The notes beneath the pieces are model-generated. The model was not told the DNA's origin, searched no databases, and was given only the letters and a program-made list of their open reading frames with translations. The translations under genes and the position numbers were made by a program. Below, piece by piece: positions 5,471-64,000 of a stretch of DNA of 64,000 bases. Every line of letters begins with the position of its first letter. Within the stretch, counting starts at the first letter, position 1. The DNA comes from Diphasiastrum complanatum. Taxonomy: Eukaryota > Streptophyta > Lycopodiopsida > Lycopodiales > Lycopodiaceae. The stretch spans positions 36,364,361 through 36,428,360 of the forward strand of contig CM055106.1 in NCBI GenBank assembly GCA_029204225.1, written 5' to 3'.

Positions 5471-5830
<360 letters not shown>

Positions 5831-8219: not shown

Positions 8220-8224
8220 GTAGA

Positions 8225-9129
8225 TGATGGTCTGGGTTGTAGCTTTGGTGATATCTTGATTGCCATACTTTTATATGTTGATAGCTCTATTATCACCGAC
8301 TAGGGAGGGACTACAGAGACACTTGGACAGTCTACATAAATTTTGTGCTAGATGGGGATTACAAGTGAACATCTCGAAGACCAAAGGTATGGTCTTCAAT
8401 ACTTCCATATTCTTTATATTGAGACAGGAGTTTACCTTTGAAGATCAGCCTCTATAGGTGGTTTCATCTTATACCTACGTGGGGGTGCTTTTCAGTGGTC
8501 CTATTTTCAGTATGAGACATGCAACCTTGGCCCGCCACGTAGAGAAGGGTCATGCATCATTGGTCCAGCTAGAGAGATTTTGCTTCAGGAGATATATTCA
8601 TGATGCTCCTAGTAAGTGTCGCCCTTTTGACATTATAGTCACTCCTACAGTACTCTATTCAGTTGAGACTTGGTGTGCATGTCTTACTTCCTCTAATTGG
8701 GCTAGTATATCACGACTACAGATCATTATGCTTTTTCGGATGATACAAGCTAAGTCATCAGTACCACATCATATCATCATCACAGAGTATGAGACATAGT
8801 CGTCATCAGCGGATCACTATTTTACCAGATCTTCTGGTTTCATCGAGAACACATATCACATCCTTTTTCAGTTGTCTTAGCTAAGAGAGTTTAGATCCAT
8901 ACACTTCTTCTCAGCATGGACATCCACATTTATTGTACCATCTCTCATATTTAGTTACTATGAGAGTAGAGTAGAGTAGAGATCTATCTAGTAGTTGTTT
9001 GTTGTACTGGAGACATTTATATGCTCCTATTATTGTTGATCATACTTGAGATGTACTTATTGGTCTTATATGTCTTTTGGCATTTAAAAGACATTAATAA
9101 AACTTTCTTTCTTTCTCTCTTTCTCTCCA
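8225..9129 (+). mobile_element. 5'-truncated LINE, tail in CT-rich tract
   Basis: Starts in the middle of the RT domain and ends with the family's conserved 3' terminus: TTGAGATGTACT, a hairpin with GTCTTTT and AAAAGAC arms at 9072-9092, ACATTAATAA, then a CT-rich tail to 9129. It matches the intact minus-strand LINE at 28.5-33.6 kb in both protein and 3'-end layout. Truncation at the 5' end is typical of target-primed reverse transcription. Confidence 0.8.
8235..8799 (+). pseudogene. LINE ORF2 fragment (end of RT and linker)
   Basis: Begins with GCSFGDILIAILLYV, matching the residues just before the YADD active site of the intact copy. A frameshift destroys the Asp pair. Then LQRHLDSLHKFCARWGLQVN and SKTKGMVFN follow, a TAG at 8455-8457, and VVSSYTYVGVLFSG, MRHATLARHVEKGHASLVQLERF, TVLYSVETWC and PHHIIITEYE up to a TAG at 8797. 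The intact LINE aligns through all of these (for example [19 protein letters not shown]). The downstream Cys-His region is not recognisable. Confidence 0.8.
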
Positions 9130-9396
9130 GTGATGGTTGCCTAGTGCGCCCTCCTCCCCCCAGGGATGGCCTGATGATCCCCCCCCCCCTTCCTCCCTCC
9201 CATCCATCTCCTTCCCCTTTCCCTCCCTCCATAGAAAATAAGGTTAGCCCATTCTTCCCCCACCTGACCACCTCCTCTGCCTCCTCCACCCCTCCTTCCT
9301 TTCCCACCCGCCCTCTTGTTGCACAGCAGGTGCCCGTGTCCGGCCCTCTCTCTCTATGTTCGGCTTCCATTTCTACTTGCCCTTCGCCAAACACCT

Positions 9397-9499
9397 CAAA
9401 TCCTCACACCCCATCCGTCTCTCTTACCCCCTTTCTTTTTGTATTTCAAATCCTCACACCCCATCTACCCCTCTTACTCCCTTTCTTTTTGTATTTCAG
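9397..9499 (+). repeat. Two-copy 50-bp tandem repeat
   Basis: Unit starts CAAATCCTCACACCCCATC and ends in CTTTCTTTTTGTATTT. The copies start at 9397 and 9447 and differ at a few bases. It lies inside the short LINE derivative. Confidence 0.85.
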
Positions 9500-9608
9500 A
9501 TTGTATTTCTTGAGTTGCTTTGCGGAGTTACTATGCTCTCATGTTACTACACACTTGAGATGTACTACTCTTTTTTATATGCTTTTTGGCATCAAAAGAC
9601 ATTAATAA

Positions 9609-11609
<2,001 letters not shown>

Positions 11610-19600: not shown

Positions 19601-22600
19601 TGCCTTTATAGCCTGTGTTATGTCCTGTACATAGGATTTGGTATAGTCCTAGACTTGGATACACGGTACTCCAGAGCTCGAGATTATTGGTTACGACACG
19701 TCATACTGGATGTGACCCGTAAAGTAATTAATTACCTTGTAAGGCCCAGACACGCTAATTGGAGTGAGTACAAGGTTTGGGACAGTCAATGCATGTGTAG
19801 AGTATCAACAACAATTGGATTTATTAATAGGGGGGTTTAGACCTTGCATTACCGCATGCACAGGGTGGTCTTAAGCCTATATATGGGCAAATTTCATGTA
19901 CTAGAGTACAACGGTTTGCGGTTCCTTTAGTCTAATTTGAATTATCTATAGTCGGGAAATAATTTAGCTTTAGCGAAAACACGATTTTTAACCAACTTTA
20001 CGTAATTAAAAAATCCTGACGAATATATTGTTAATACTGAAGGCAATCAAAATCGAAAAATTGAAATACTGTTCGATTCCAATTGTCACTAAACCAATGT
20101 CAGACTGGCATGCAAAGCACACTACATTAGTCACAAAACGTCATTACGGAATTTTTTACGTAAATTTCAGTTTTACAGAATTTGTCAGCCATATCCCTGA
20201 TTTGTGACCCAACCGTTAGAGCACATGTGTATGACCACTCAAATCGACTGTAAATCCCTCATGCATATCAGAAACACTTTCAAAATCCACATGCAATCAA
20301 TCCATGCAAGCACAGTACCACAAGTTAGGAAAAAAGCAAGCATGCAATCAAAACATTTACGGATTTTGTCAATTTTGCTCACAAAATCGCCAAAATTTCA
20401 AACGGCCATAACTTGAGATACAGTGCACCAAATTAGGCGTTGTAAAGCACAATATGGAGGGAAACCGAGATGCTTGCCACATCAGCCTGCCACCTAGTCT
20501 TCACACGTGCGAGCACAAAACCTCTGAAATTTTGCAATAGGGCGCACTTTTTCAAGGCCATACACTGTAAAATCATGCAAACACTTTCCCTAGCCCAAAA
20601 GTGATGTTAGCAACAGTCTTAAATGCTCTATTAGACTTCTGTAAGCATTCATATAGGTCCTAAGAAGCAGTATAGGCTGAGAACTAAGATTTCTTGATTT
20701 GTAGAAGGGATTTTGGTTTCAAATGTGATGGAGACGGAGCATAAGCCACCGGCCATCAATTTACAAGTCTGATAGCTTGCTGGTGATGATTTTTAGCTAT
20801 TTTCCTGTTTTCTTCACCATGAAGTGCAAATTTATGACATGCAATAAAACGACCCCAAGACCTCCAATCAGGATTGAGAACCAAGAATACAATAAGGGAG
20901 TGCAGTGGATGAAACCAACCCAACCAAACCTAGACCATCCGATCTAGCCCCCGAGCACTAGAGAGTATGGCAAATCACAATGATGGTAAGCACTTACCAA
21001 TCTGACAACATAACGGCCGTAGACTCTCAATGATCCCTATGGACACGGGTGAGGGTATATACAGAGAGTAGCACCCACTCTGCCTGCCCATGCACTGAAT
21101 CCACAAAGCGTGCCATCAACCCATGCTTAACTCCCATGCATGACCACTGCATGTGGGTACCCCTAACCTATAATAGCAAAGACCCATGCGTAGACACAGT
21201 GCATGTAAATCTTGTTGAAGAGTAATGCCTATTTTACCCCTTTTGGCTAAGCATTAGTTAAGTTTGTACACAACTCATGGCCCCTTTTGTAAGTTATGTA
21301 AATTAGTGCAAGTGGCCCACTTGGCCAAGTAGCTCACTCCTATGGTTGACACCTAGACTTTCCATGCATGTAAAGGAGGTGCTTGCCCTACAAGGGATTT
21401 GGAGGACCCACGCCCTCCTCTCTCTCTCTCTAGCAATTCATTTCTTCTTGAGACTTTTGAGTTTGTGAGATGCTCATGCAGTTCTCCTTGTGTGATATAT
21501 TTTCCATAGCCAAGTTTTCTCAAGCTTTCATAGTTGATCTAGCATTTGAGTTAAGATACTCCATAGCTAGGTCTTGTAAATCTTCATGGTATCAGAGCAG
21601 GTTGTCTAGCTTGTGAGTCTGAGAGTGAGAGAAACTTCAGTGCTTAGATTCTTGAGAAGATTCTCATCTTCTACAAGCACCTCAATCTTGAAAGAGGGAG
21701 CATTTGATCTACAAGTGTCAGATCAGGTGGAGTCTTGCACTGTTGGAGAGCTATTGGCAAGGGGAGTGGGATGATCCAAAAACTTTCTAAATCTGGCCAA
21801 GTTTTGGGGAGTCTTTCTGGAGGAGCTTACACAAAAGTAGGGCGCACTTTTTGTAGGGGCTTCTGGTTTCTGTTCTAGTGGAGCCTAGTGCTTGTGCTAG
21901 TGAGGCCACACCAAGTGGCAAAGACAAAAGCAGGAGCTGAAGGGTTGCCTTGAAGTGGCTACATACCCTAGTTTGGGGTTAAACCCTTGTTGCTGGAAGC
22001 TGTTCTTTTCTGATCTTTTTCAGGTTGAGCTTTTGTTTTAAGCACAGATTTTAGCATGGCAAGTCTTGGGGAGAGTTTGCTGGGTGAATCTAGCAAACTA
22101 GATGGCACAAACTACAGAGTGTGGAAGCTCAAGATAGCTAATATCTTGATGGATAAGAATTGCTGGGAGGTCATGACAGGTACAGAACCTGTACCAACAT
22201 CTGATCCTGAATTGAAGGACTACATGAACAGGAGATAGAAAGCTCATAGGATAATTAATCTTTCTGTCAAGGACAATATTATTCCTCACATCTGCAATGC
22301 AAGGGATGCAGCTGATGCTTGGACAATTCTGAAGTCTATGTTTGAAACAATGGATTCAGCCAAGCTGGTGTATTTGCAAAACATGTTACATACTCTCAAG
22401 ATGGAAGCAGGTGCAACAATTGGTGATCATATTACAAAGGTCAAGGACCTAATGGATCAGCTTGCTTCAGTTGGAGAGAAAGTAAGTGACAGGAGTATTG
22501 TTCCCATAGTCTGGAACAACTTGTCATTCAACTATCAAGACTATGTGATGTCCCTTTCTGCTAGGGAGAAACTCCCAACCTTTGGGGAGTTATGTGGTCT

Positions 22601-25600
22601 TCTTTTACAGGAGGAGATGAGAAGGAAGAATCTTTCTGAAAGGGAAGATAATCCAGAGCTTGCATCTGCTTCTAAGAAGAAGCAAAACTTTCAGAAGAAA
22701 GGCAAAGGCAAAAAGAAGAACTCAAAGCAAAGCTTGGAGCAGTAGGTGTCCAAGTTACAGGTTGGAGAGGAGTCAAGCACCAATTCCTCATCTACACCCA
22801 AGAGGAAGGGCAACTGCAACTATTGTGGTAAGTATGGGCATTTTGCCTTTGAATGCAGGAAGAAGCAAAGTGATCAGAAGAAGGGAAAGAACCAGCAGGG
22901 TCACTTTGTTGACAAAGTTGCAGAGGAGGAGCAATCTGGTGTGCTTGAGCTATTCACCGCAGCCCTATCATCCGAATCCACATTTGGTGGATGGTACATT
23001 GATTCTGGAGTCTCAAAGCACATGACACCTCATAGAGATTGGTTCAGCACCTATGAGGAGACAAAAGATGGTCAGCATGTTTGCCTTGGAGATAATTCTA
23101 CACGCATAGTGAGGGGCAAAGGCACAGTTGCAATACAGCTGTCATCAGGTGAGGTGAAGGAAATTAAAAGTGTGTTGCATGTACCTGGGTTGGCTAAGAA
23201 CTTGCTATCTATTGGTGCCATTATCAAACAAGATATGGTGGTAGAGTTTAATGATTCTAAATGTTTGGTAAAAGACAAAGATCAGAACTTCAAGGTGGTA
23301 GCCAAGGGAATGCAAGAAGGAGGTCTTTACAAGCTTTTCACAACCATTCCTAGCCAAGAGGCCTTGTCTGCAAGAGATACTAATCGGGACAAGCTTTGGC
23401 ATGAGAGATATGGTCATTTGAGTTATAAAAGTTTGCAAGTTTTGAACAGGCACAAAATGGTAGTAGATCTTCCTAGCATTAAGTCTTCTTCAGATACATG
23501 TGAGGCTTGTGCATTACAGAGGAAAAAGTTTCCAAAGGAGAAAGCTACCAGGGCCAAGGGCATTCTTGAACTTGTGCATTCAGATTTATGCGGTCCCATG
23601 CAGGTCAAATCAGCAGGGGGGGCATACTATCTCATGACCTTCGTAGATGATTTCTCTCGGAAGGTATGGGTCTATTTTCTGAAACTGAAATCTGAAGCGT
23701 TCAAATACTTCGAACAGTGGAAAGCTATGGTGGAAAACCACACAGGAAAGAGGTTAAAAACTCTCAGGTCAGATAAGGGTGGTGAGTATATTTCTGATGA
23801 GTTCAAAGATCTTTGCAAAGCATGTGGGATAAAGAGATAGTTTACTGCTCCACATACACCGCAGCAAAACGGCGTGGCTGAGCGGAAAAATAGGTCTATA
23901 GTTGAGTGTGCGAGGAGCATGCTCAAGGCAAAGGGGTTGCCAAATTCCTTTTGGGCGGAAGCGGTAGCAACTGCTGTTTTTCTATTGAATAGAAGTCCAA
24001 CCAAAGCAGTTGAGGGAATCACGCCAGAAGAATCATATAGTGGCAACAAGCCCAAAGTGGGCAGCCTTCGAGTGTTTGGGTGTACAGCATATGCACATAT
24101 ACCAAAGGACTTGCGGAAGAAACTTGATGCAAAATTCGTAAAGTGTGTCTTTCTTGGGTATAGTGAAGGTGAGAAAGCTTATGTGCTATATGATCTCGAA
24201 AACAGGAGGAAGATCCTAAGTCGAGATGTCATCTTTGATGAAGAGCATGCACCCAAGATACAGGAGCAGGAGAAGGAAGGAACTACTGAGTTCATACCCT
24301 TGATTGATTCCACGGATGAGGATCCTAGTCAAGAGTCCTGTAAGCTTCAAGTGCAGGAGCAACAATAGGAAATCGAACCTACTAGTTTGAGACCTCTTTT
24401 TGGCCAAGTACCAGAAGCTGAAGTTGGGGACAAACAAAAGACTAAGACAGTACCATGGGATACGTGGTCACCATCCACATCACCTACTGCTAGGAAGAAG
24501 CTACCTAGGTGGTATTGGGAAACAATCAAGAAGGAGAGAGCAGTGAATAGGGTGTCAGAAGATTTTTTAGGTCTCATGAGGGACAAGAGACTAACTTTGC
24601 TCTTATGTCCACTATTCTAAATGCAGATGAGCCACAGTTCTTTCATGAAGCCGTGAGAGAAAAGGTATGGCAACATCCCATGCAGGAGGAGTACGACTCC
24701 ATTGTCAAGAATGACACATGGGAGCTCACTACATTGCCAGAAGGGAAGCAACCAATAGGTTGCAAGTGGGTCTATAAGACCAAGTTTCATGCCAATGGAA
24801 CAGTGGACAAGTACAAGGCAAGGTTGGTGGCGAAAGGCTATGCTAAGCAAGAGGGGCTAGACTATGATGAGACATTCGCACCTGTTGCTAAGATGACATC
24901 TATCAGGACCGTTTTGGCTATAGCCTCATATTTTGATTGGGATGTCCATCAAATGGATGTCAAGAGTGCCTTTCTTAATGGGCACCTACAGGAGGAGGTT
25001 TACATGGAACAACCGCAGGGATTTGAAATAACAGGCAAGGAGAATCTGGTTTGCAGGCTTAGGAAAGCCTTGTATGGGCTCAAACAGGCGCCAAGGGCTT
25101 GGTATAGCCGAATTGATGAGTACTTTGCAAGGCAAGGATTTGAGAAGAGTAAGTCTAATTGCAATCTTTATGTCTTCAGGGAAGGAGAAGACTTTGTGGT
25201 TGTTGTGCTCTATGTGGATGATCTACTCATCACAGGAAGCAATAAGAAGCTTATTGCTTGTGTTAAGAAGAATCTTTCTAGTGAGTTTGAGATGAAAGAT
25301 TTGGGTTTGCTACACTATTGCCTAGGAGTTGAAGTTTGGAAAGGGAAGCGTTGTCTTTTTATCTCACAGGCAAAGTATGCACATAAATTATTGAAGAGGT
25401 TTAACATGCAAGAAAGCAAACCAATCAGCACACCCATGGATGCAAGCAACAAGTCATCAAAAGATGATGGTCCAGCATTTGCAGATGAGACGCTCTATCG
25501 TCAGTTAGTGGGCAGCCTGATTTACCTTACTACCACCAGGCCAGATATTGCTTATGCGGTTGGAATTGCAAGTCAATACATGAGCAAGCCTACCGAAGCA

Positions 25601-27500
25601 CATTGGAAGGCAGCCAAGCGGATCCTATGATATGTGAGAGGGACAGTGACTTATGGGATTGGATACACGGATGATGGGAACCTTCAGCTGGAGGGTTGTT
25701 CAGATTCTGATTGGGCAGGTGATAGAGACGATCGGAGATCGACGACAGGCTATTGTTTCAGCCTAGGTTCAGGGGCTATATCATGGTGCAGTAAGAAGTA
25801 GCCTACTATTGCTCTATCATCTACCGAAGCTGAGTACAGGGCGACTACGAGGTCCGCCTGTGAAGCCATTTGGTTAGCCGTCTACTTGAGGACATGCAGA
25901 TTGCTCAAGTAAGACCTACATTGTTACATTGTGATAACCAAAGCTGCATTCAGCTTGCAAGAAATCCAGTCTATCATGCATGGACAAAACACATAGAGGT
26001 GGACCAGCATTTTATACGAGAGAAAGTGCACAGTGTGGAGATCGAGCTAGTTTATTGTGACACCAACGACCAGACAGCTGATATTTTTACTAAAGCACTT
26101 AGTAAAGATAAGTTTGAAAAGTTCAGAACTTTGTTGGGTGTCCAGTTTGAATAAAATTGCCATTAAGGGGGGGTGTTGAAGAGTAATGCCTATTTTACCC
26201 CTTTTGGCTAAGCATTAGTTAAGTTTGTACATAACTCATGGGGCATGTTTTAATTAAATGCATGAGACCCCCTTTTGTAAGTTAGGTAAATTAGTGCAAG
26301 TGGCCCACTTGGCCAAGTAGCTCACTCCTATGGTTGACACCTAGACTTTCCATGCATGTAAAGGAGGTGCTTGCCTCACAAGGGATTTGGAGGACCCACG
26401 CCCTCCTCTCTCTCTGTAGCAATTCATTTCTTCTTGAGACTTTTGAGTTTGTGAGATGCTCATGCAATTCTCCTTGTGTGTGATATTTTCCATAGCCAAG
26501 TTTTCTCAAGCTTTCATAGTTGATCTAGCATTTGAGTTAAGATACTCCATAGCTAGGTCTTGTAAATCTTCACATCCTATCCCATACTAGGATGCAACAC
26601 ACATGCCTATACTGCATGCAGGCATAGCCCATGGTCCTACTCAGCTATTATTCGAATTAGGCCTGGCCCCTACGTCTAAGAGAGCCCCCCAATGGTACAA
26701 ACTTCCATTAGGGCCGTAACATGCAACCCTTTCTCACCCACATGCAACTCAATTTACAGGATTATAGACATCCTAATGATCTGATCTTACTGGATTTTAG
26801 CTCTTACTATCAATTTTTAGTCAAAAATCATGAAAAACAAGCAATTTTTGACCAAGCCTAGAACCATAAATCATGAAAAGAACTGGCATGCATCATTAAT
26901 TTCTTCATTAATGATCCCTAAAATGAAAGTACACTTGCTGGAAAATTCAGATCTACACAAGATTTGAGTTATACAAGAAAAAGCTCCAAAAAAGCATCAC
27001 GAATATATAGGCTTAAGGCCACCCTACGCATGCGGCAATGCAAGGTCTAAACTCCCTTATTAATAAATCCAATTGCTATTGATACTCTACACATGCATTG
27101 ATTGTCTCAAACCTTGTACTAACTCCAATTAGTGTGTCTGGGCCTTACAAGGTTATTAATTACTTTACGGGTCGCATCTAGTATGACGTGGCGTAATCAA
27201 TAATCTCGAGCTTTGGTGTATCGTGTATCCAAGTTTAGGACTATACCAAATCCTATATACAGGACGTGGATGTGGTACATCTTGCTGTTGCGCAGTAGCC
27301 GCAGCAGGAAAAACTTGCTGTGCAACAGCAGCAAGAGGGGGGGTGGGGAAGGAAGGAGCAGAGGAGGAGGAGGAGGAGGAGATGGTGAGGTGGGGGGAGC
27401 GTGGGGTCCCCCTTACCTTCTTTGCCATGGGAAGGGGAAGGGAGGGGTGGGGAAAGAGATGGTGCAGGAGGGGGAGGGATCACCTGACAACAACCATCAC

Positions 27501-27561
<61 letters not shown>

Positions 27562-28508
27562 TGTATTCACGTCTTTTCCATGCCAAAAGGCATATAAGAC
27601 AAAAAAAACAGGACATCAAAGTACGATGGAAACAAGACGGGACAATGCCGTCAACCAGATAAGAAAACTAAGCTATAGCTAACCACTATGCAATAGTCAA
27701 TATATGGTGTGAAAATGCAACCATTTACAAGGTCAACTGGATATCAAACTCAACTCAAACTCAATTCTATTCTCAACTCCAACTTCAAATTCATCTATTT
27801 CGTTTTAGCTAAACGTTTAGCTATAACAGAACGGATTTTACCGTCTCTGTAAATGAGATGTTTCCTTGTGTCCCTTGGTTTTTGCATGGTATCTTTTAGT
27901 TTGTGTCTTTGATGCAGTACCTCCCATCGAGATTCCAACGAGGTGAAGCGCAGGATAAGAATATTGGCATCTTTCTTGGCACGCCAGGCTGAGACCAAAC
28001 CTTTGTCGTGATGATGGAGAGTTACTTCCAAATTTTTTCTGGCTTCAGTAAAAGCATCTTGAGAATCCGGGATGCCTGTGACATGGACATTGAGAGCCTT
28101 TTGCTCGTGCAACTGGCTGTCAACTATCATAGCAGAAATGAAAGAAACTGGAGCATTCGCCAATTTTCTTGGACCTTTGAGAATATCTGCCCAAGATTGG
28201 ACAAATGTAAGATGCTGCTCCACTTTACTTCAAGGTCTTGGATCGTAGTTGAAGTAGCTACCTGAAAGGGTATTGCACATTTGATGGCTGTAATTTCCTG
28301 CTTCAGTTTTGTAATGAATTTCTCTAGCAAACTATCTGCAAGGCAGCTAGAATGTGGGAGGGCAATGACAACCAGCGATGGTTGACCTGGTACAACAACG
28401 ATGGAGCGGGGCGTCAGGCGTGGGCATTAGGTATGGAGCCCATCAGAGCCAGCGTGATGGAGGACAAATATCCAGCGACAACTATAGGCGCTAGAGCTAG
28501 CAGGCGGC

Positions 28509-28603
<95 letters not shown>

Positions 28604-31600
28604 AGAATTAGATTTAGAATTATTATTATTAACGTCTTTTGGTGCCCAGGGGCACATAAGACAAAAGAGAGTACAAAATGTGAGAAGCATTGTCCGCATA
28701 AGGACTTATTTACCAATGAAAAGACAGTAAAACTAAAACTAAAATATCGATCTCTCTGTCTCTAAGAGAAAAAGTATCCAAGCTTGACCACCAGCTGGTG
28801 AGGGTACAAAGCAAGAGCTTAACCACCTGCTCCGCGGAGGAAACGAGCTACGAGCAAGCTGAAAGTAATGAGTGATGGTAGTAGTGGGTCGTGATGTAGG
28901 CTGGTGGGAGGCGTATGAAGATCTAGTAGCACTAGATCGAGCCGAAACTCTCTGTGTCTTCGATCTTCGGACGGGGATGTCAAAATCCGCAACCGAAATA
29001 TCCACTCTGTCTCGCTTCTGGAAGAACTGAGTAATGTGAGCCTGACTGGAATCCATATCTGAGAGCGTAGGTAGAAGTGAAGCTCGTAAAATATACATCT
29101 CTCTCAAAAGAAGACCCACACATCTAGCATCTGGATACTCGAGGAAGGAGCTCAACGTGAGGGGAATATCTCGGTATAAACAATGGTATCGTCCTCTAAT
29201 CTCATAGTATACTGGGCAGCGAAAGATGAAATGAAACTCATCTTCCACCTCCTGAAGAGAACAAAGCTGACATATCCGCTGCAATCTGGGAGTGTCTGTG
29301 TATCTACCTGTCTCGATAGCAAGCTGATGAGAAGAGACTCGAAGCTGTCCTATACGATATCTCAGACCAAAAGATAGCGTCTGTGTAAGATAAACTGGAA
29401 GAATAGGCAAGCCCGAAACGTCCAGCCGTAAAAGATGTGTGCCATAATAATGTAGCTTGACCCTATCTGGATCAGGATGTGACCATATAGTGCGTATGTA
29501 GCTCCGGTAAATCTGCTGTCTGATATAAGCATGGGTTCCATTCGGAAGATCAAGTGCGGATAAACCCCAAGTCTGAAGAAGGGCTGAGACACTGCGATAC
29601 CAAGAGTGCTTGGCTCCCTGATCTGCAAGGGTACAAGATGAAGTGAGAGCAGCAACAATGTATCTGGAGGTATCTAGATCTGATACCCTGTGAAGAAAGG
29701 TGATGATCTGAAACATAGCACCAACAACTAATGGAGGAGAAGCAAACTCGGCTAGTATGATATCATGTGGTACTGAGGGCTTAGCCCGAATTATCCTACT
29801 GAGCATGAGAATCTGGATACGAGTAAGATCTCTCCATGTATCGCGTGATAAATCAGGGCACCAAGTCTCAGCCGAATATAGCACAACTGGGGAGACAGTA
29901 GCAGAAAATAGTAGGCATCTGGTAGCAGGATCCTGCACATAATAAGTAGAGCAAAATCTCTCCATATGCACAAGAGCGGTATGCCCCTTGCGGAGCCTGG
30001 CGGTGGCTGCTGGTCGAAAAGTGAGTAGCGGACCAGAGAAAAGAACTCCCAAATAGGTGTAGGAGGTCACGATCTCAATCGGTAGCCCGTTATAATAGAA
30101 AATCACATCTCTCATATGCTGTCTGTTGGTGTTAAACACCATAATCTTAGTCTTCTTAAGGTTAACCGTCAATCCCCAACGCTGGCAAAAGTGATGTAAA
30201 GCAGAAAGGTGACTCTGTAAACCAGCTGCAGAGGATGAGAGGAGAACCACATCATCAGCGTACAAGAGAATGGGGATAATAATGTCTGCTAGGGGACAGC
30301 CCTCTCCACCTTCCTCGCGAATAATCCGCTCGAGGTCATCTATATATAGTGCAAAAAGAGTGGGTGATAAGGGGCAACCCTGCTTCACCCCAATGGTAGA
30401 ATGTATCTGTGAGGACCAGCCACTACCATCTCTGAAACGTGCCAAGACTCGCTCATATAAAGTAATGATCGCAGCAATAGTATCCTCTGAAAAGCCAACT
30501 GAAGACAGTCTCTGGAAAAGAAGATGTCGTGGAACAGAGTCAAAAGCTTTGCGAAAATCCACAAAGCAACAGTAAATTCTCTGTTTCCGATGTCGAGCCT
30601 CCTCAATAATGCATCTCAAAATGAAGATCTGGTCTGAAGTAGAATATCCCGGTCTGAAACCAGCTTGACCCATAGCGTGTAAACCCTCAGTTTCAGCAAA
30701 AGATCCAGTGACTGTCTGTAGTATAGAGCCATATATCTTAGCTAGAGTGTGGCCAATCATAATGGTGCGGTAGTTTCCTACATTCATGGGATCACCTGCC
30801 TTGAGGATGGGGTGAAGGATATTAGTACACCAAGCCGTAGGAAAACCAGAAGTAACAGCTGTGTTAAAAACATGAGCAATGTAAGGGGAGATGAGATGTG
30901 CTACGGGCTTTAGGAAGTCTACACTTAAGGAGTCATAGTCAGTGGCTTTATTTAGTTTGGCATGTTTAATGGCGTTTTCAACCATGTCAGGGGTGAAAAG
31001 TGAGCAGTGGTCAGGTCTCGGTGAGAGTGAGGTAGGAGGAGAGTCCGTGGTATATAACTCCGTGGCATACTCGATCCAGGATTCGATGGCTATGGGGGCC
31101 AATGTTGAAGAGTGTCTGGTGAAATGTTTCCAGAAAAAAGAGGAGGAGGGTGAATCTAAAGAGTTGATCATTTTTTGGCAGAGTGATTGTAGGTACTTGA
31201 TCTTCTTTGTTCTGGTGGTTCTATGATATTCTTTCTGGCATTGTTTGAGTGTGGCAGGGGAGTGTGACCTGGCATATGTCACATGATTGTGAAGAGAGCG
31301 GCATTCTGCATCATACCATCTGTTGTGAACACTTCTGTGAGATGATGTCGTTTTGGTGGGGAAGGATGAGGAAGCAGTAGCTAAGAGGGATGTAGAGAGA
31401 AAAGTGGCTTGCTGGTCAATTGGTGCCATGAACGGGAAGTTAGCGAGTAGTTGGGATAAGATTGTGGTGTAATTAGTGAATCCAGATTGGGTGAAAGGAA
31501 TACGTTTATGAGTGGGAAGAGAGCAAGAAATTTGCAAAGAAGAGGTTATGTGACCAAGTGAGATGTGTAAGAGTGAGTGATCGGAAATGGTAGGGGGTGT

Positions 31601-33627
31601 GATGGAGAAATCAGAAATGTGAGAGATCAAAGCAGGTGATCCAATGAAGTAGTCGACCACACTATGTCCTCCACCATGAGGATAGCATGTATATGCTGAT
31701 GAGGAAGGCCACTGTGTGAGGCCATTCAAAATGGCAAGAGCGTGTGTCTCTGCTAGAGTGATCAACTGCTCCCCGAATGATGTAGCTGGAGTGTCTGCAT
31801 CCTGTGATACCCGGTCTAGCCCCATATCCAAAGGGTAAAGCCTGAGAAGATCCGTAGCTGCATGAAATTCGGTTTGTCTAGAGCTTGTGCGGGCGTTGAA
31901 ATCACCTGCTAGTAAAATGGAACCCTGCTGAGAAAAGATAGCAATATCATCTGAGAGAGCCTGAAAAGGGTCCCCGCCAAACTCAGCAAACACTGAGGTC
32001 TGTGGAGCAAAATAGCATACAGCTATATAGATGTCCTGAGGTAATCCCAATAGTGAGCCAATAATGTGTAACCAAATATAGCGAGCGTATGGATCTTGTT
32101 TAACCATCTGAACTGTGGTGTCTCTGTATAAACAAGCTACTCCTCCAGATCCTCGACAAGTTTTTCCCCTAACAAATGGACGAAAAGCAGAATGCCAAGA
32201 GTACTCCTGTATATTTGGAAGAGGATGATATAAGGACTCATGAGTTTCAGCCAACAACAAAATGTCGCATTTTCTAATAAAATCAGCAAAGTCTCCGGCT
32301 GATGACGAAGATAAAAAACCATTACAATTCCAGAAGCCAAGTCTCAAATTGGTAGGGGATCTCGGGTAGCTTCTATATCCGGGGGCCCCTAGTTCCTATT
32401 GTGGAAGGTCGAAAAATCTCGGTTTCCCGTCAATAAAAACAACCCTTTGCCCTTTCTCTTTCGCTTCAAGGATAATCTTTTTTCTTGCCAACCATTGAGT
32501 ATTTGTTAAGTCATCATCCATATAAATGAAAGTACCTTTAAGCTTTGCCCTAAGCCGAAGGGCAGCATTGCGTTGTGAAAGCGAGCGGAACTTGATAAAC
32601 AAAACATTGTCATCAAATTTACTGCGCCAAGCAGTATCAAAACCGTCAGCCACATGAGATAACTTGGAAATGAGCAAATCCGTAGCTTCTTCCAACGGTT
32701 TTCCACCATTGGCAATGCCTCTTACTCTAATGTTAAAGGCTTTTTTGGCCCTTCTGGCTTGTTCACCCAAAACTGTCTCCAAATCGTTTTCCTTCGGAAA
32801 AGATGAAATCTGAGAGTGATTACCTTGCTTAAGGATCGATGTCGTTTCTTCAACCTGTTTTGCGAGTGATGAGAGTTTGCTGCCCATATCATCCGGTTTG
32901 AAGAGTGCTGCCCACGTTTTCGTCTCCTCGACTTGTTTCTCCAAGCTATTGATCTTGTTGGAAGTCTCCTCCAAGGCACTTTTTTCTGCAATTCGTTGCT
33001 TAAGATATATATTTTCTTGCTCAAGCTGCTCCACACGTTCCGTGACACCAAAAAGATCCTTAGCTAACTTGCTATTTTCAGCTTCAAAGAGGTGTAGTTG
33101 TTTCTTAAGTCCAAGAATTTCTTGCCGGATAAAACTAAGATCATAAGCAAAAAGACTTTCGGTAGGTTTGGAAGGAGTGTAGTCAATGGCAGCCATGTTG
33201 ATAGTTTCTGTCACCGAAGACGGCTCCTCCATCACTACCGGTGATGGGGGGGTGTCCAACAGGGAGGGGGGTGTAAGAACACCCTCCTTTTTCTTAGGTG
33301 CCATAGGAGGCGGTAAGTAGATGGAGGAGAGAGAGAGAGAGAGATCGCGCGATGAGAGGGAAGGGAGGCAGATTTGGCCACGGGAGCAAGGGGCGAGGCA
33401 GGAGGGAGAGCGGGGGTAAAGGAAACAGGAGTGAGGGTAGAGGAGGCAAAGAGATCAGGGCGCAGAGTTCAAGGCCAGCGAGGGGCAGGATATGAGGGCG
33501 AAATAGAGGCAGGGAACAGTGTGGAGGTGCGATGGTGGACAAAGAGTAGCGGATCGCTGGTTGGAGAGAGAATAGCAAGGAAGGTAGAGGGAAGGGAAGA
33601 GGGAATTGGGCAGCGATGGAGATGCTG

Positions 33628-33703
<76 letters not shown>

Positions 33704-34085
33704 CTTCAGATTATACCAACCCTCAAACAACAAATAGTGTCATCTATCACCTTTTGATTCATTTGCTGGAACTTGATTCATGAGGCATCAACGATGGCTG
33801 GCTACATGCGATGCTTGGGAGAGAGAGCAACAGCGATGGCAGACCTGCAACAGCGATGGCTCATACCTCCAGCAATAGTTCAGACCTCCATTCAGACCTC
33901 CAGCGATGGTGAGAGAGGAGACCTCCAGCGATAGTTCAGACCTCCAGCGATGGTGAGAGAGAGAGAGAGAGAGGGAGGGAGGGAGGGAGGGAGGGAAGGA
34001 GGGAGAGAGAGAACAACAATGATGAAGAGATGTACTCCAGCGATGGTGAGAGAGGAGACCTCCAGCGATAGTTCAGACCTCCAGC

Positions 34086-34167
<82 letters not shown>

Positions 34168-36544
34168 ATTAATGTCCTTGAATACCCCAAGGTACATAGG
34201 ACTCGGAAAAGGTATAGTCAAGTGTGCACATAGGAGCTTAATGCTCAATCATCTATAAAACAATAACTGCGAATATAATGCCTAAAGATGGCTGGCCCAC
34301 AACAGCCTAGAATCGAATATCATGATGCCTATCAGCCTGGAAGAAGTGGTGAATGGTATGCTGTGAAGGTGTCAATGGGTGTGCCATGGACCTCTGCCGT
34401 CGGGTAGGCTGTCGGTGTCGTCTCTACTGTCGTGTCCATCTGGGCTGGGGCCTAATGGCTGACTGTCTCTCTGGCCGTCGACATGGTCGCTGTTGCCGAT
34501 GTATGGAAGAATCTGGAATCTCGGCCTCTCCATCTGAATCGTAGCCTATGGATATGTCGGATCTTTGTCTCCGACGGGATATGCACTCACTGATGCTAAA
34601 CTGTACCAGGGAGTGTGTATCAGTATCTAGTCTCCTCCTCCTCAAGTCTGACATCTCCCGGATCATCAATGCGACACATCTGGGGTCCTCATAGGATATC
34701 AAGGTAGAAAGTGTGACTGGGTGCTCTCTGAATAAGCAGTAGTACCTCCCTCGACTCTCATAGTAGGCTGGACATCTGAAGAGGAAATGTGATTCGTCCT
34801 CAATCTCATGCATAGAACACATGTTACAAAGCCGGTCCTCTCGTGGGGTGCCACTGTATCAGCCGGTCTCAATGGCCAGCTGATGTGAAGAAACCCGAAA
34901 CTGACCCATCTCTATCCGTAATCTGTGTGATATACTCCTCAGCAAGTAACCAGATAGTTTGGGGTAGCCAGCTGGATCAAGAGATAGAAAGTGTGTACGA
35001 TAAAAATCACTCTTGGTCCCCAATGGACCCTGCCAGGTGATATGAAGATATGATCTGTAGAGGAGGCCTCTGATGTACTGATGGGTGCCCGCAGCCAATG
35101 TACATCCCTCCTCTCCATCACTCCATATAACATGCTCCAACTCGTCAATGTAAAGACCAAAAAGTGTAGGAGAGAGTGGACATCCCTGTTTGAACCCAAT
35201 AGTACTAACCACCTCCGTGAAATAACTCCTGATAGTCGGACCCTGCCAACCACAAGCTTGTACAATGCTACTACTGCCTATATAGCATCCTCCTGAAAGC
35301 CCTGATCGTGAAGTCTCTGTATCAATAGATGCATAGGCACAGAATCAAAGGCCTTGCAGAAATCCACAAAGCAACAGTATACACGTTCTCTCTTGCCTTA
35401 GCCTCCTCAATGATGGACCTCAAAGTAAAGATATGATCCGATGTATATCCTGGTCTGAAACCCGCCTGTCCAATGGCATAACGTGATCTCGCATCCACCT
35501 CTTACTAATCTCTGACTGTAGGATAGAACCATAGACTTTGGCAAAGAGGTGGTTGATCATAATGGTGCGGTAGTTGTCAACTTTCATGGGGTCCCTGCCT
35601 TTATGGATAGGGTGAATGAGGTTTGTGGACCATGGAGATGGAAAATCAGAGGTGACAGCTCGGTTGAATAGAATGGAGAGGAAGGGTGAGAGGATGTCAT
35701 CAATGTCTTTGGCTTTATGGGAATCGAGTCGTGTGATGGCCTTCTCTATAAGGTCGTTAGTAAATATGGCAGGAGTATCCGTGACACGAGGTGGGAAGAG
35801 GAGGGGTATCTGGGATGGTGTACAGTGATGTGGCATATGTGACCCAAGTGCTGAGGTCTGTAGTCCGTGGTGGAGGTGACCGTGGAGGAACTTCTTCCAG
35901 AACGAACCTGAGGAGGAACTGAAGAGGAGATCCATCATTACAGAGAAGCCCTCTCTGATCTCCTTACCTATTTTCCACATGAGCATACTTTAGAGGAGCG
36001 GTCCCTCTTTCTTGTCCAGACCATCCACAATGCAGCAAAACACTATTTGATTGTTGTTTTTTTCCTCTCAATTCATTGGTGGCATGCTGAACTTTCAGTA
36101 TTTACAAGTTTGCTGAAAAGACCCAATACATATCGCTTTTTCCTATTTATTAGAGCTAAATGGAGTTTGTAAGCTTAAATATTTTGATGTTGTTTGACTC
36201 GAGAGGGTGATATTTTCTAGATTTGACGGCTTGCCTCATAGTATTACAGGGATGGAGCTTCTGGGACAAAAATTGTGGAGGCATTAATTGCAAATAGTGC
36301 GTCCTTTCAAAACAAGACAACGTTGTCTCAAGTATGTGAAGATTAAAAGCTGTTCTACATTAGTTTTGAGAGCTTGGGAGTCATATACATTTAGTTTTTC
36401 ACTCATGTTTATGGTCTGTAAAAAGTGTCTAGCTGTGGTACAGGCAAGTTGACCGGATTGGAGTTGTTTGCAGGAAAAATACAAGCGTAAGAAGCAGAAG
36501 AAGCATGCTCCTCGCATTGTTGTCAGATGTCCTTCTGCTCGAAG
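16509..36544 (+). CDS. TRM6: tRNA m1A58 methyltransferase non-catalytic subunit TRM6 (spliced, partial)
   Basis: Joined coding segments 16509-16636, 16925-17049, 17440-17581, 36250-36331 and 36474-36544 give about 182 residues in one frame with no stop. All introns are GT..AG and all codon phases agree. The family is recognised from [66 protein letters not shown] and [18 protein letters not shown], consecutive conserved blocks of Gcd10p/TRM6. TRM6 pairs with the catalytic TRM61 in the nucleus to methylate A58 of tRNAs, including initiator tRNA, and supplies tRNA binding. The C-terminal half (expected to start with a segment like xICEAYF) is not in the window. Introns carry all the TEs. HTSSMVKLGN deviates from the usual LTPG.xxKIGN, possibly reflecting divergence. 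RNA data would settle the start and whether the gene is expressed. Confidence 0.85.
16925..17049 (+). CDS. TRM6: TRM6 exon, PLIGCPFGS block
   Basis: Acceptor CTAACAG at 16918-16924, donor GTATAC at 17050. Encodes [20 protein letters not shown] then [20 protein letters not shown]. Conserved through the family as the end of the N-terminal beta-barrel-like domain. Confidence 0.88.
17440..17581 (+). CDS. TRM6: TRM6 exon, DNTAQSLS block
   Basis: Acceptor TTTGTAG at 17433-17439, donor GTACTA at 17582. Encodes [19 protein letters not shown], then [20 protein letters not shown] and ISYMR. RDNRxLxDDNTAQ is highly diagnostic. It ends in phase 2 (AG), completed by G at 36250. Confidence 0.9.
17582..19621 (+). 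other. Start of TRM6 intron 4; no gene seen
   Basis: AT-rich intronic sequence before the first inverted repeat. Open stretches here (18203-18709 + and its minus shadow) show no family features. The whole intron runs 17582-36249 (18,668 bp) and houses the inverted-repeat pair, a copia element and the LINE array. Confidence 0.6.
19622..19884 (+). repeat. Left arm of a 263-bp inverted repeat
   Basis: Runs from GTCCTGTACATAGGATTTGG to TTAAGCCTATATAT and matches, in reverse complement, 27003-27265 with scattered substitutions. Both arms are the same length. They may be terminal inverted repeats of a DNA transposon of about 2.3 kb into which Copia-5 inserted, or LTR-like sequences in opposite orientation. 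Confidence 0.8.
19885..21212. other. Interior left of Copia-5; no gene seen
   Basis: Between the left inverted repeat and the copia 5' LTR. It has many ATGCATG/CATGCA words and no sustained coding similarity on either strand. If the flanking repeats are TIRs, this is the left interior of that element. Confidence 0.4.
21213..21586 (+). repeat. Copia-5 5' LTR
   Basis: 374 bp, starts TGTTGAAG and ends CTTCA (short inverted repeat TGAAG/CTTCA). Includes a short CT run. Lacks 27 bp (around CATGTTTTAATTAAATGC) that are present in the 3' LTR. Confidence 0.92.
21587..21598 (+). other. Copia-5 primer binding site
   Basis: TGGTATCAGAGC directly abutting the 5' LTR, complementary to the 3' end of initiator tRNA-Met. 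Confidence 0.92.
22056..22745 (+). pseudogene. Copia-5 gag
   Basis: Capsid region beginning [20 protein letters not shown] with [12 protein letters not shown], a TAG at 22236-22238, then [45 protein letters not shown] and [15 protein letters not shown], the usual UBN2-type capsid order. It ends with a Lys-rich tail and a TAG at 22743-22745 just before the zinc knuckle, which lies in another frame. About 230 codons, normal for copia capsid. Confidence 0.85.
22746..24368 (+). pseudogene. Copia-5 nucleocapsid, protease and integrase
   Basis: Frame with zinc knuckle [14 protein letters not shown], protease [12 protein letters not shown] (usual DSGAS altered to DSGVS), [12 protein letters not shown], the GAG-pre-integrase motif [14 protein letters not shown] with [10 protein letters not shown], and integrase with [31 protein letters not shown], a TAG at 23838-23840, [19 protein letters not shown] and [10 protein letters not shown]. 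The DDE residues are all visible. The TAG replaces the Gln of the conserved (K/R)QFTxPxTPQQNG motif. A second TAG ends the stretch at 24366-24368 in the acidic linker. Confidence 0.88.
24605..25630 (+). pseudogene. Copia-5 reverse transcriptase
   Basis: 341 open codons with the whole RVT_2 domain: [89 protein letters not shown] (intact YVDD), [26 protein letters not shown] and [17 protein letters not shown]. It stops at TGA 25628-25630 after AAKRIL, where the family has RYVRGT, so CGA to TGA is likely. The catalytic core itself is undamaged. Confidence 0.92.
25631..26154 (+). pseudogene. Copia-5 RNase H
   Basis: Continues as [31 protein letters not shown], then ISWCSKK followed by TAG at 25799-25801 in place of the Gln of [15 protein letters not shown]. 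After a frameshift near 25870, [44 protein letters not shown] and [16 protein letters not shown] follow to the stop at 26152. RNase H removes the RNA strand during cDNA synthesis. Confidence 0.88.
26164..26173 (+). other. Copia-5 polypurine tract
   Basis: TAAGGGGGGG immediately before the TG of the 3' LTR, the primer for plus-strand cDNA synthesis. Confidence 0.85.
26174..26572 (+). repeat. Copia-5 3' LTR
   Basis: 399 bp from TGTTGAAG to CTTCA. Nearly identical to the 5' LTR except for the extra 27 bp around 26240 and a handful of substitutions. Confidence 0.92.
26573..27002. other. Interior right of Copia-5; no gene seen
   Basis: Between the copia 3' LTR and the right inverted repeat. Rich in GCATGC-type words like the left interior, no coding similarity. 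Confidence 0.4.
27003..27265 (-). repeat. Right arm of the 263-bp inverted repeat
   Basis: Reverse-complement partner of 19622-19884. Its outer end abuts the truncated LINE 5' fragment at about 27270. Confidence 0.8.
27266..27502 (-). mobile_element. LINE 5' fragment (leader and ORF1 start)
   Basis: Follows the CT tract at 27503 on the minus strand with CCAGTGATGGTTG, then a pyrimidine-rich leader and an ORF1 start at 27428: [18 protein letters not shown], a Ser run, then [15 protein letters not shown]. It is cut at about 27266 by the inverted repeat. The fragment is homologous to 9130-9340 on the + strand. Confidence 0.6.
27503..27559. repeat. (GA)n tract, tail of the ORF1-only LINE
   Basis: GA run on the + strand (CT on the LINE strand) that follows the hairpin at 27571-27594. 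Confidence 0.95.
27795..28335 (-). pseudogene. LINE ORF1 protein fragment (frameshifted)
   Basis: The upstream frame has [19 protein letters not shown] and [12 protein letters not shown] shift near 28210 leads to [75 protein letters not shown] and [20 protein letters not shown]. This matches the ORF1 of the intact LINE ([26 protein letters not shown]) and the fragment at 63.8 kb. Like L1 ORF1p it probably bound LINE RNA through the coiled coil and RRM-like part. It is interrupted and has no partner ORF2 in this copy. Confidence 0.7.
28513..28600. repeat. (GA)n tract, tail of the intact LINE
   Basis: 88-bp GA run (CT on the LINE strand), following the GTGCCC/GGGCAC hairpin at 28655-28634 and a short AATTCTAAAT spacer. 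Confidence 0.95.
28739..32347 (-). CDS. LINE ORF2: AP-endonuclease and reverse transcriptase
   Basis: 1,202 residues, no interruption. Residues 1-260 form the exonuclease-endonuclease-phosphatase fold: WNCNG (7-10), AETH (33-36), GDFNAR (148-153), DYF (232) and SDH (255-257), all catalytic positions present. RT covers about 440-740: [55 protein letters not shown] and [12 protein letters not shown], with YADD at 696-699. Near residue 1023 a Cys-His motif [15 protein letters not shown] followed by RCPVYY resembles zf-RVT. The protein nicks DNA and primes cDNA synthesis at the nick. All motifs are intact, so this copy or a close relative may be active. Confidence 0.93.
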   Translation of the reverse strand: MRLGFWNCNGFLSSSSAGDFADFIRKCDILLLAETHESLYHPLPNIQEYSWHSAFRPFVRGKTCRGSGGVACLYRDTTVQMVKQDPYARYIWLHIIGSLLGLPQDIYIAVCYFAPQTSVFAEFGGDPFQALSDDIAIFSQQGSILLAGDFNARTSSRQTEFHAATDLLRLYPLDMGLDRVSQDADTPATSFGEQLITLAETHALAILNGLTQWPSSSAYTCYPHGGGHSVVDYFIGSPALISHISDFSITPPTISDHSLLHISLGHITSSLQISCSLPTHKRIPFTQSGFTNYTTILSQLLANFPFMAPIDQQATFLSTSLLATASSSFPTKTTSSHRSVHNRWYDAECRSLHNHVTYARSHSPATLKQCQKEYHRTTRTKKIKYLQSLCQKMINSLDSPSSSFFWKHFTRHSSTLAPIAIESWIEYATELYTTDSPPTSLSPRPDHCSLFTPDMVENAIKHAKLNKATDYDSLSVDFLKPVAHLISPYIAHVFNTAVTSGFPTAWCTNILHPILKAGDPMNVGNYRTIMIGHTLAKIYGSILQTVTGSFAETEGLHAMGQAGFRPGYSTSDQIFILRCIIEEARHRKQRIYCCFVDFRKAFDSVPRHLLFQRLSSVGFSEDTIAAIITLYERVLARFRDGSGWSSQIHSTIGVKQGCPLSPTLFALYIDDLERIIREEGGEGCPLADIIIPILLYADDVVLLSSSAAGLQSHLSALHHFCQRWGLTVNLKKTKIMVFNTNRQHMRDVIFYYNGLPIEIVTSYTYLGVLFSGPLLTFRPAATARLRKGHTALVHMERFCSTYYVQDPATRCLLFSATVSPVVLYSAETWCPDLSRDTWRDLTRIQILMLSRIIRAKPSVPHDIILAEFASPPLVVGAMFQIITFLHRVSDLDTSRYIVAALTSSCTLADQGAKHSWYRSVSALLQTWGLSALDLPNGTHAYIRQQIYRSYIRTIWSHPDPDRVKLHYYGTHLLRLDVSGLPILPVYLTQTLSFGLRYRIGQLRVSSHQLAIETGRYTDTPRLQRICQLCSLQEVEDEFHFIFRCPVYYEIRGRYHCLYRDIPLTLSSFLEYPDARCVGLLLREMYILRASLLPTLSDMDSSQAHITQFFQKRDRVDISVADFDIPVRRSKTQRVSARSSATRSSYASHQPTSRPTTTITHYFQLARSSFPPRSRWLSSCFVPSPAGGQAWILFLLETERSIF
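32396..33304 (-). CDS. LINE ORF1: coiled-coil RNA-binding protein
   Basis: 302 residues from ATG at 33304. A Pro-rich N-terminus ([20 protein letters not shown]), then a Leu/Glu-heptad coiled coil at about 60-165 ([37 protein letters not shown]), then an RRM-like part ([36 protein letters not shown]) and a C-terminal domain ([32 protein letters not shown]). The order matches L1 ORF1p (Transposase_22), a trimeric nucleic-acid chaperone. It lacks a CCHC knuckle. The ATG is preceded by the pyrimidine-rich leader, and no nearer in-frame Met precedes the conserved part. Confidence 0.85.
   Translation of the reverse strand: MAPKKKEGVLTPPSLLDTPPSPVVMEEPSSVTETINMAAIDYTPSKPTESLFAYDLSFIRQEILGLKKQLHLFEAENSKLAKDLFGVTERVEQLEQENIYLKQRIAEKSALEETSNKINSLEKQVEETKTWAALFKPDDMGSKLSSLAKQVEETTSILKQGNHSQISSFPKENDLETVLGEQARRAKKAFNIRVRGIANGGKPLEEATDLLISKLSHVADGFDTAWRSKFDDNVLFIKFRSLSQRNAALRLRAKLKGTFIYMDDDLTNTQWLARKKIILEAKEKGQRVVFIDGKPRFFDLPQ
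33630..33701. repeat. (GA)n tract at the 5' end of the intact LINE
   Basis: 72-bp GA run on the + strand directly adjoining the LINE 5' leader. No LINE hairpin is adjacent on its other side (AATCTTCAGATTATACC), so this tract marks an insertion site or the element's own 5' end. Confidence 0.95.
33800..34090 (-). repeat. CATCGCTGGAGG tandem repeats
   Basis: About ten copies of a 12-20-bp unit (CACCATCGCTGGAGGTCTGA, with variants ending in CCTCTCT), plus a (GGGA)n run at 33973-34000 and a short GA run at 33955. A unit of about 130 bp seems duplicated (33890-33960 and 34035-34100). Lies between the CT tail of LINE-3 and the next CT tract. Confidence 0.75.
34091..34163. repeat. (GA)n tract, tail of LINE-3
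   Basis: 73-bp GA run (CT on the LINE strand), following the CCTTG/CAAGG hairpin at 34196-34173 and ACATTAATAAAAT. Confidence 0.95.
34424..35986 (-). pseudogene. LINE-3 ORF2 remnant lacking the YADD motif
   Basis: 35986-35420 holds the start of RT ([39 protein letters not shown]). An out-of-frame part holds [18 protein letters not shown]. 35212-34859 holds [20 protein letters not shown], then jumps from EEGCTLA to [16 protein letters not shown]. The intact copy has about 250 residues between these points, including YADD. A TGA at 34861-34859 replaces the Arg of ETGRYTDTP. 34822-34424 holds [20 protein letters not shown] and the basic C-terminus. Confidence 0.85.
36250..36331 (+). CDS. TRM6: TRM6 exon after the 18.7-kb intron
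   Basis: Acceptor TTACAG ending at 36249, donor GTATGT at 36332. Encodes [19 protein letters not shown] and QNKTTLSQ, which directly continue SYMRR of the preceding exon as in other TRM6 proteins (MRR.GxxGxxIVExLIxNSxxFxxKT). Confidence 0.9.
36474..36544 (+). CDS. TRM6: TRM6 exon, basic segment; last one in the window
   Basis: Acceptor TTTGCAG ending at 36473, donor GTATGC at 36545. Encodes [20 protein letters not shown] and SAR, the basic stretch that precedes the Rossmann-like C-terminal domain of TRM6. It ends in phase 2. No following exon was found before 64000. Confidence 0.88.
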
Positions 36545-36815
36545 GTATGCTGACTTTTTTTTTCGAATCCATTTAATTATTGCAATTAAGTTCACTCTAG
36601 TAGTACACTAATTTTTTTTTTCAATTGTGGTACTTTTCAATGTTTATTCAGAGATATCAAAAAGCTCTTGAAATTTATCACTCGAGCAACGTTAGGATAT
36701 TCTTGCGCTCTAGCTACTTCTTAAGCTATTGGATCATACAAGCACCACACACTGCTCAAACAATGAACTGATAATAACAATATGAGCCACTTAATGTATG
36801 ATGGTGATTGAAATT
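36545..36815 (+). other. Intron sequence between TRM6 exon and Gypsy-B
   Basis: AT-rich, no coding signal. Ends with AAATT (36811-36815), the left target duplication of Gypsy-B. Confidence 0.7.
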
Positions 36816-49614: not shown

Positions 49615-49653
<39 letters not shown>

Positions 49654-63130: not shown

Positions 63131-63761
63131 AGCTGAAAGTCCTACCCCTAATCTATACTAAGAATGTAGGAGTCTCCATGCCAAGTATACAGTCCTGATC
63201 ATGATAATTGGCATAAATGCAATCCACGACTCACTGGTCAAGTCAACAGGCCCTGTTCAACATCCAGTATCAAGTGGGGTGGAACCCAAGGAGTTGGGTA
63301 TGTACTGTACATTAGATTTTGCTCCTGACCAATAAGCTTTTAGTATTTGTCAGTACACCATTATGCCTCCTCATTTAAAAGATTGATTGTTTTGAGGACT
63401 ACCTCCTCACATAATATCAACTTTGATTCAGTTTACATTTAGTTTCAAATCAGCTTGTATTTATCATCATTTTTTAAAACATTATTATCTTGGTATTGAT
63501 CTTCAGTAATTGATCACTCCATTGCAATGTCTCTCTGTTTCATGCAATGTGTGCAGTTTTGTGAGTAAGTATTATGTTCTTTTGTAATTACAAAACTTAA
63601 ATGAATAAAGCATGTAATAGATAGTTAAGGACATTATTCCACTCTATTTGTATGGGCCTTTATTGTGAAATATTATTTTTTATTATTGGGCCTCGTTAAT
63701 CATTTCCAGGGCATGGTTGATTGTTTGTATCCAAATCATTGCTATGATGATGGAGGTTTTC
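63131..63761. other. AT-rich intron sequence, no gene seen
   Basis: No coding similarity on either strand and no TRM6 exon. The upstream ATTGTTTTGAGGACTACC region shows nothing notable. Confidence 0.5.
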
Positions 63762-63997
63762 ATCCAGAAACTTTTTTGGCTTCTCCAAGAGCATCTTGAG
63801 AGTTAGGGATGCCCCTTACACAGACATTAAGGGCCTTTTGCTCTCGCAACCGGCTCTCAGTGAATGTGGCGGAGATGAAAGAGATTGGGGCACTCAATTT
63901 ACCTGGACGTTTAAGGATGTTTGTCCATGAAGCCTCCTTATGGTGTTGTTCTTCACTTTCGTGGATAGTTTCAGTGTTAGTGTTGGTATTCTTTCTT
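63762..63997 (-). pseudogene. LINE ORF1 fragment at window edge
   Basis: Minus-strand frame: TNTNTETIHESEEQHHKEAS, WTNILKRPGKLSAPISFISA, TFTESRLREQKALNVCVRGI, PNSQDALGEAKKVSG, stop. It aligns with the ORF1-only LINE ([40 protein letters not shown]). The element may continue past 64000. The stop at 63762 is premature relative to the other copies. Confidence 0.75.
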
Positions 63998-64000
63998 TAG

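Follow-up and report, generated by a model that had tools for sequence, protein, structure and literature searches.

Background

Kojima and Fujiwara reportedly described KibiFr1 in 2004 as a TC-repeat LINE of fugu. According to a passage in PMC6515669, L1-related consensus sequences from fugu are closest to KibiFr1 in RepBase. In the sections of PMC4640811 drawn on here, some HERO families insert in microsatellites and Togen in (TG)n, and the Tx1 and R1 clades have an APE. A different kind of clustering is found in green algae, where Zepp and Zepp-like L1 LINEs target copies already present and build tandem clusters, as set out in parts of PMC8226300 and PMC3446292. For flowering plants, passages of PMC3747384 state that almost all L1-clade LINEs end in poly(A), and that the stringent-type L1 LINEs of monocots have a conserved hairpin at the 3' end with compensatory changes.

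The locus considered here is from the clubmoss Diphasiastrum complanatum, and the window denotes the whole stretch of 64,000 nucleotides that was analysed. It contains two arrays in which LINE pieces with a hairpin at the 3' end follow each other across CT tracts.

Organisation of the two arrays

LINE pieces were located within the window by tblastn against the proteins of copy A, the copy in which both reading frames are open. They form one array on the minus strand (27266-36000), consisting of B, a 390-bp 5'-UTR-like unit, A, C and D, and one on the plus strand (8223-9733), consisting of the decayed ORF2 half E, an imperfect CTTT/CT tract, the short copy F and a 123-bp CT tract. Orientation is constant inside each array. 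The features are as follows:

34164-36000, minus strand: copy B (LINE-3 in the initial annotation), first member of the array, old decayed 3' half of a diverged LINE
34092-34163, minus strand: (CT)36, 72 bp, forming the tail of B and the 5' junction of the piece that follows
33702-34091, minus strand: 5'-UTR-like unit, containing CCATCGCTGG motifs and tandemly duplicated in its interior
33630-33701, minus strand: (CT)36, 72 bp, preceding the 5' end of copy A
28601-33629, minus strand: copy A, about 5 kb, both frames open
32399-33304, minus strand: ORF1 of copy A, 302 codons from ATG
28739-32395, minus strand: ORF2 frame of copy A, 1218 codons from stop to stop (open 32395-28742)
28626-28662, minus strand: two-tier 3' hairpin of copy A
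28512-28600, minus strand: (CT)44, 89 bp, tail of A and upstream boundary of C
27560-28511, minus strand: copy C, internally deleted, with part of ORF1 and the 3' end
27503-27559, minus strand: (CT)28, 57 bp, tail of C and 5' junction of D
27266-27502, minus strand: copy D, 5' end (CAGTGATGGTTG...) and start of ORF1
8223-9102, plus strand: copy E, decayed 3' half of ORF2 (ORF2 piece 8223-8796 by tblastn) and 3' hairpin
9103-9128, plus strand: imperfect CTTT/CT pyrimidine tract, tail of E and 5' junction of F
9129-9610, plus strand: copy F, short, 5' and 3' ends only, the 5' end matching that of D
9611-9733, plus strand: (CT)61, 123 bp, tail of F
63731-64000, minus strand: extra ORF1 fragment related to copy C, without a 3' end and reaching the end of the window
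49618-49650: CT/GA tract without a LINE, inside a presumed LTR-type repeat

The initial annotation had described LINE pieces in the same orientation, head to tail, on the minus strand, and the tblastn pieces and the 3' ends agree with this. The CT tracts had been correctly placed at the junctions; they are pure, lie on the LINE sense strand and measure 72, 72, 89 and 57 bp. The plus strand repeats the pattern as claimed, with E, the CTTT/CT tract, F and the 123-bp CT tract in succession. The pieces had also been assigned to one LINE family, which does not hold: amino-acid identity to copy A in tblastn is 34-49%, with 34% and 43% for two ORF2 segments of B, 49% for the ORF2 piece of E and 40% for the ORF1 piece of C (28103-27885), so that different families are involved. 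Four of the five LINE tails are directly followed by another piece. Three of these four pieces are LINEs by ORF1 or 5'-end homology, and the fourth, at 33702-34091, is presumably of LINE type.

Coding capacity of copy A

Copy A is a LINE with an APE-type endonuclease and a reverse transcriptase. Its ORF2 matches PF03372 (2.6e-14) and PF00078 (1.8e-33) and has all of the motifs WNCNG, GDFNA, SDHS and YADD, together with a CCHC near the C terminus and QAHITQFF in the C-terminal part. Self-comparison of the window gave no LTR, the CT repeats being the only pair that flanks the copy; the 5' end was set at the CT border and not by homology. In phmmer comparisons ORF2 scores 86.5 bits with R2 and 77.7 bits with human L1, scores that do not settle the clade, and the nearest full-length relatives are 40-41% identical over 89-93%.

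ORF1 and ORF2 are in frame with one TAG between them (32396-32398, minus strand; CAA TAG GAA CTA). Up to residue 97 the ORF2 frame has no ATG, and the endonuclease motif is found at residue 22; ORF2 would therefore need read-through, a non-ATG start or some other device.

The structure model of ORF1 begins with a long and confident coiled coil. Downstream of it the order of strands and helices fits the L1 type (RRM, CTD), but the pLDDT of this block is about 40-70. No Pfam match to ORF1 was obtained at E 0.02 or better, and comparison with solved structures gave two matches (E 0.31 and 0.86), each involving the coiled-coil region. Over its full length ORF1 is 97% identical to a protein of Diphasiastrum complanatum, a species that is also the source of three further ORF1 matches (five in all). 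Judged from sequence, the 97% identical ORF1, be it another copy or the version of another accession, would fit recent activity.

A QxxITxFF motif, which in ORF2 we take to be of the PCNA-binding type (residues 1118-1125), is situated 72-104 residues from the C terminus of the window ORF2, of the proteins P0003-P0006 and of the relative L002, that is in six of six, with L instead of I in P0005. Such a motif is absent within 110 residues of the end in all 38 more distant proteins (P0007-P0044, partial sequences included), three of which have one elsewhere in the protein. Copy B has a similar QHTIHHFF. In another Diphasiastrum protein, P0036, the C terminus runs into the start of ORF2 of the copy A LINE. 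P0036 matches Pfam PF03200, presumably of the glucosidase type, and represents either a chimeric gene model or a LINE-derived exon.

A hairpin at the 3' ends

All five LINE 3' ends found in the window have a two-tier hairpin, behind which comes a near match to RTTAATAA. In an alignment of the five hairpins 49 of 50 cells are paired and three pairs are changed on both sides, and sliding the hairpin partners cuts the pairing to 32-60%. The observed covariation is matched by 8 of 500 shuffles and the number of pair types by 196 of 500. A single hairpin is not rare, because about 1.3-1.4% of the window positions give at least 9 of 10 pairs in this geometry; the telling point is that it recurs at the LINE ends.

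A covariance model built from the five ends recovers those five by construction, and with it no sixth LINE 3' end was found in the window below E 1. Two relatives from outside the window were also compared. The model places the hairpin of L002 at the expected spot only at E 2.4 and does not find that of L003. When aligned by hand, the five ends and L002 form 57 of 60 pairs (8 of 10 in L002 and 9 of 10 in F), and L003 shows a hairpin of identical layout. Energy folding of short stretches yields the two-tier form for A, C, E, F and L003 but does not yield this form for B or L002. The only Rfam match in 27000-36600 has an E of 0.9 and is far under the gathering score.

CT tracts at the junctions

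Pyrimidine tracts of at least 20 bases with a C share of 20-80% were counted, and there are 16 on both strands of the window. A tract on the same strand is found within 35 bases after all five LINE 3' ends (window rate 0.32-0.56% of positions) and touches all five upstream boundaries (window rate 0.05-0.08%), though these junctions are not independent because a single tract serves two neighbours. A CT-type tract flanks each of the copies A, C and F at either end, a small sample in which tracts are again shared between neighbours.

CT/GA tracts of at least 30 bp occur seven times in the window. The tracts might be unrelated microsatellite growth, or copies might have been artificially joined across repeats in the assembly, and two of the seven are indeed without a LINE. 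However, the other five are placed at LINE ends on the sense strand, and two arrays are found in one window, which makes an explanation of this kind very improbable.

A pure CT tract of 104 bp at 5557-5660 (minus strand) is situated beside a copia RT remnant and has no LINE hairpin. It was ruled out as a LINE tail because no hairpin precedes it, and it is possibly a vacant target or a ghost tail. Two other candidates were dropped: the equal 72-bp length of the tracts around 33702-34091, which may easily be due to chance, and a purine immediately behind CT as an indication of transcription start, which is trivial since the tract is defined to end there.

Decay, boundaries and probable order of insertion

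The two ORF2 segments of copy B (35938-34328 by tblastn) are in one frame with two stops each, about 240 codons are missing between them, and there are short matches in another frame. Its hairpin is found at 34202-34166 and its 5' boundary near 36000 is without CT. The ORF2 piece of copy E has one stop and one frameshift, and there is no CT upstream of its 5' boundary at 8223, where it appears to adjoin an LTR-like end. These boundaries of B and E, the first members of their arrays, may be secondary and were counted neither for nor against the readings below. An interpretation of B and E as 5'-truncated founders was dropped because of the LTR-like end next to E and the unexplained flank of B.

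Only part of ORF1 is kept in copy C, and its boundary at 28511 is possibly a 5' end but could also mark the other side of the copy A insertion. This boundary and the unit at 33702-34091 can be read as one older element split by A at an internal CT tract, the unit possibly being its upstream half; the 5' ends then number four, all of which still abut CT. The unit has an internal tandem duplication (33898-34012 and 34035-34149, 92% identical) that includes a pyrimidine tract, and a search with the covariance model gave no LINE 3' hairpin in it. Mouse L1 has promoter monomers, and the duplication of the 5' unit with its pyrimidine tract at 33898-34149 (minus strand) resembles them.

Because the boundary at 28511 is possibly not a true 5' end and 33702-34091 is without a LINE 3' end, there are four firm 5' ends at most, and only two of them (D and F) are set by homology. 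D and F, 18 kb apart and on opposite strands, have the identical first bases CAGTGATGGTTG directly after CT, so that their 5' ends lie at or inside CT. The shared start fits target-derived and element-borne CT equally. At its other side copy D is cut at 27266 by a repeat (19622-27265) with 263-bp inverted ends that are 91.6% identical, for which no target duplication was seen. This repeat encloses a copia-type element that has direct repeats at 26174-26572 and 21213-21586 (90.8% identical).

The elements might carry pyrimidine repeats at both ends. Transcription would then start in upstream CT and full-length copies would bring a 5' CT with them, while the arrays would result from recombination or deletion between CT tracts or from read-through copies of two neighbours. 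The pyrimidine tract in the duplicated 5' unit and the like beginnings of D and F directly after CT agree with such an origin, as does the fact that the copies whose boundaries are free of CT (B, E and the relatives L001 and L002) all lack a 5' end of their own. Nevertheless, in four of five cases there is one CT tract and no other DNA between neighbours, a result that random insertion does not give, and F begins directly behind the imperfect CTTT/CT tail of E. On balance this origin is unlikely.

An array could also be laid down in one event by template jumping, in which the reverse transcriptase passes from the 5' end of one RNA to the CU tail of another and leaves a head-to-tail chain. The reverse transcriptase of R2 jumps end to end, and both the observed head-to-tail order and the tail at every junction are predicted. 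The members differ, however, in family and in decay, A being open, B and E having stops and C being deleted. Given this difference, it is most likely that A was inserted between older members of an array already present, and A at least probably arrived separately. Its position among decayed members argues against a single jumping event, which is improbable, and for repeated insertion into CT.

The preferred and probably correct reading is that related LINEs, each with a (CT)n tail behind a 3' hairpin, inserted one after another into (GA)n/(CT)n by target-primed reverse transcription and so built the arrays. The LINE RNAs would end in the two-tier hairpin and a CU-repeat tail, the hairpin would be recognised by the reverse transcriptase, and the nick would fall in the purine strand of (GA)n/(CT)n, whose GA-rich 3' end would pair with the CU tail and prime cDNA synthesis. 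A copy that reached the 5' end of the RNA would start directly after CT and end in CT. The best source of GA-rich 3' ends would be (GA)n/(CT)n tracts, including those left as tails by earlier copies. As the tail is itself a (CT)n tract, that of an older copy would be a landing site, in the same orientation, for any family with the same tail, and arrays would grow because every copy renews the target. Earlier CT tails as landing sites make the best-fitting model since the neighbours are too diverged to be copies of one RNA. The initial annotation had already suggested that a CT tail becomes the next target; the order of the pieces, the frequency of CT far above chance, the common strand and the divergence of the neighbours support this, whereas the single LINE family that it assumed has to be given up.

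A wider reading is put forward more tentatively. It assumes a land-plant LINE lineage in which the tail equals the target and (CT)n is the landing site and possibly, from its place right ahead of the next 5' end, a promoter-proximal element, so that several families having this tail in common share sites and the arrays grow by themselves and can duplicate into 5' monomers. That CT might aid the promoter of the next copy is speculation. The evidence base for these readings is one window.

Relatives beyond the window

Among the best 120 of 939 reverse transcriptase matches, at least 21 are from the fern Adiantum nelumboides and at least one is from the streptophyte alga Klebsormidium nitens. One of the same 120 is labelled Enterobacter and is probably contaminant DNA. 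L001 and L002 come from a MAG named Trichormus, and we infer that they are fern (Azolla) DNA binned with the cyanobacterial partner.

The 5' junctions of L001 and L002 are outside CT, which means that relatives can insert outside microsatellites. L002 lies antisense within an apparent plant-L1-like coding region and has a pyrimidine-rich tail, CTATTTTCTTTCTTTCTCCC. The frame of its target was read from what we take to be L1 motifs, which gives an estimated gap of about 35 target residues between the flanks. If this frame is read correctly, the priming strand of the target would end in GGGAGA, which would be GA-rich priming outside a microsatellite. Perhaps priming is GA-rich in the relatives, and tail pairing may weigh more than strict cutting specificity.

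The distant relative L003, with its hairpin of identical layout, ends in (ATTG)5. Another distant LINE relative was observed in the MAG of a snail endosymbiont (L005:3222-3287), where the 3' end continues as (TC)9, followed by N. This DNA is probably that of the snail host, and the (TC)9 end is suggestive, the sequence gap blocking the reading. In viral contigs 186 stretches matched a search pattern and none of them encodes a relative.

Comparison with known systems

Kibi and the clubmoss LINEs are both tied to (TC)n; Kibi is an animal element, and the two are likened by the repeat and not by sequence. HERO and Togen resemble the clubmoss LINEs in that their insertions lie in short tandem repeats. 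In the relevant sections of PMC4640811, HERO and the NeSL-related Togen are grouped with the LINEs that have a restriction-like endonuclease, whereas the clubmoss LINE is of the APE type; the Togen families named in those sections are from fish and no plant example is given there. The stringent-type L1 LINEs of monocots and the clubmoss LINEs share a 3' hairpin with compensatory change, but the 3'-flanking and loop bases of the former, CGAG and UCU in the passages of PMC3747384 used here, differ from those of the clubmoss LINEs. A literature search of partial coverage found no land-plant LINE aimed at a microsatellite or at its own CT tail, which is weak evidence of absence. Passages of PMC12477314, PMC5753468 and PMC6786969 contributed nothing further to this question.

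If the preferred reading is true, this would be a land-plant case of a microsatellite-aimed LINE with a self-made target, and a simple positive feedback would turn a dispersed element into arrays. Certain pure CT microsatellites of great length would then be explained as LINE tails. The sequenced clubmoss would also offer a clear test of whether LINE target choice depends on tail pairing or on endonuclease specificity.

With Zepp a possible likeness lies in the arrangement: another piece directly adjoins four of the five tails, which would fit insertion into existing copies, as far as this can be judged from the order. The Zepp copies described in the portions of PMC8226300 and PMC3446292 drawn on here are mostly 5'-truncated 3' ends in one cluster per chromosome at putative centromeres, and no microsatellite junction is described in these portions. 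The clubmoss arrays, in contrast, have CT at every joint, and several of their later members, unlike those of Zepp as described there, have a 5' end. Insertion into self-made CT targets would, if true, link the TC-repeat LINEs of animals with the self-clustering Zepp elements of green algae.
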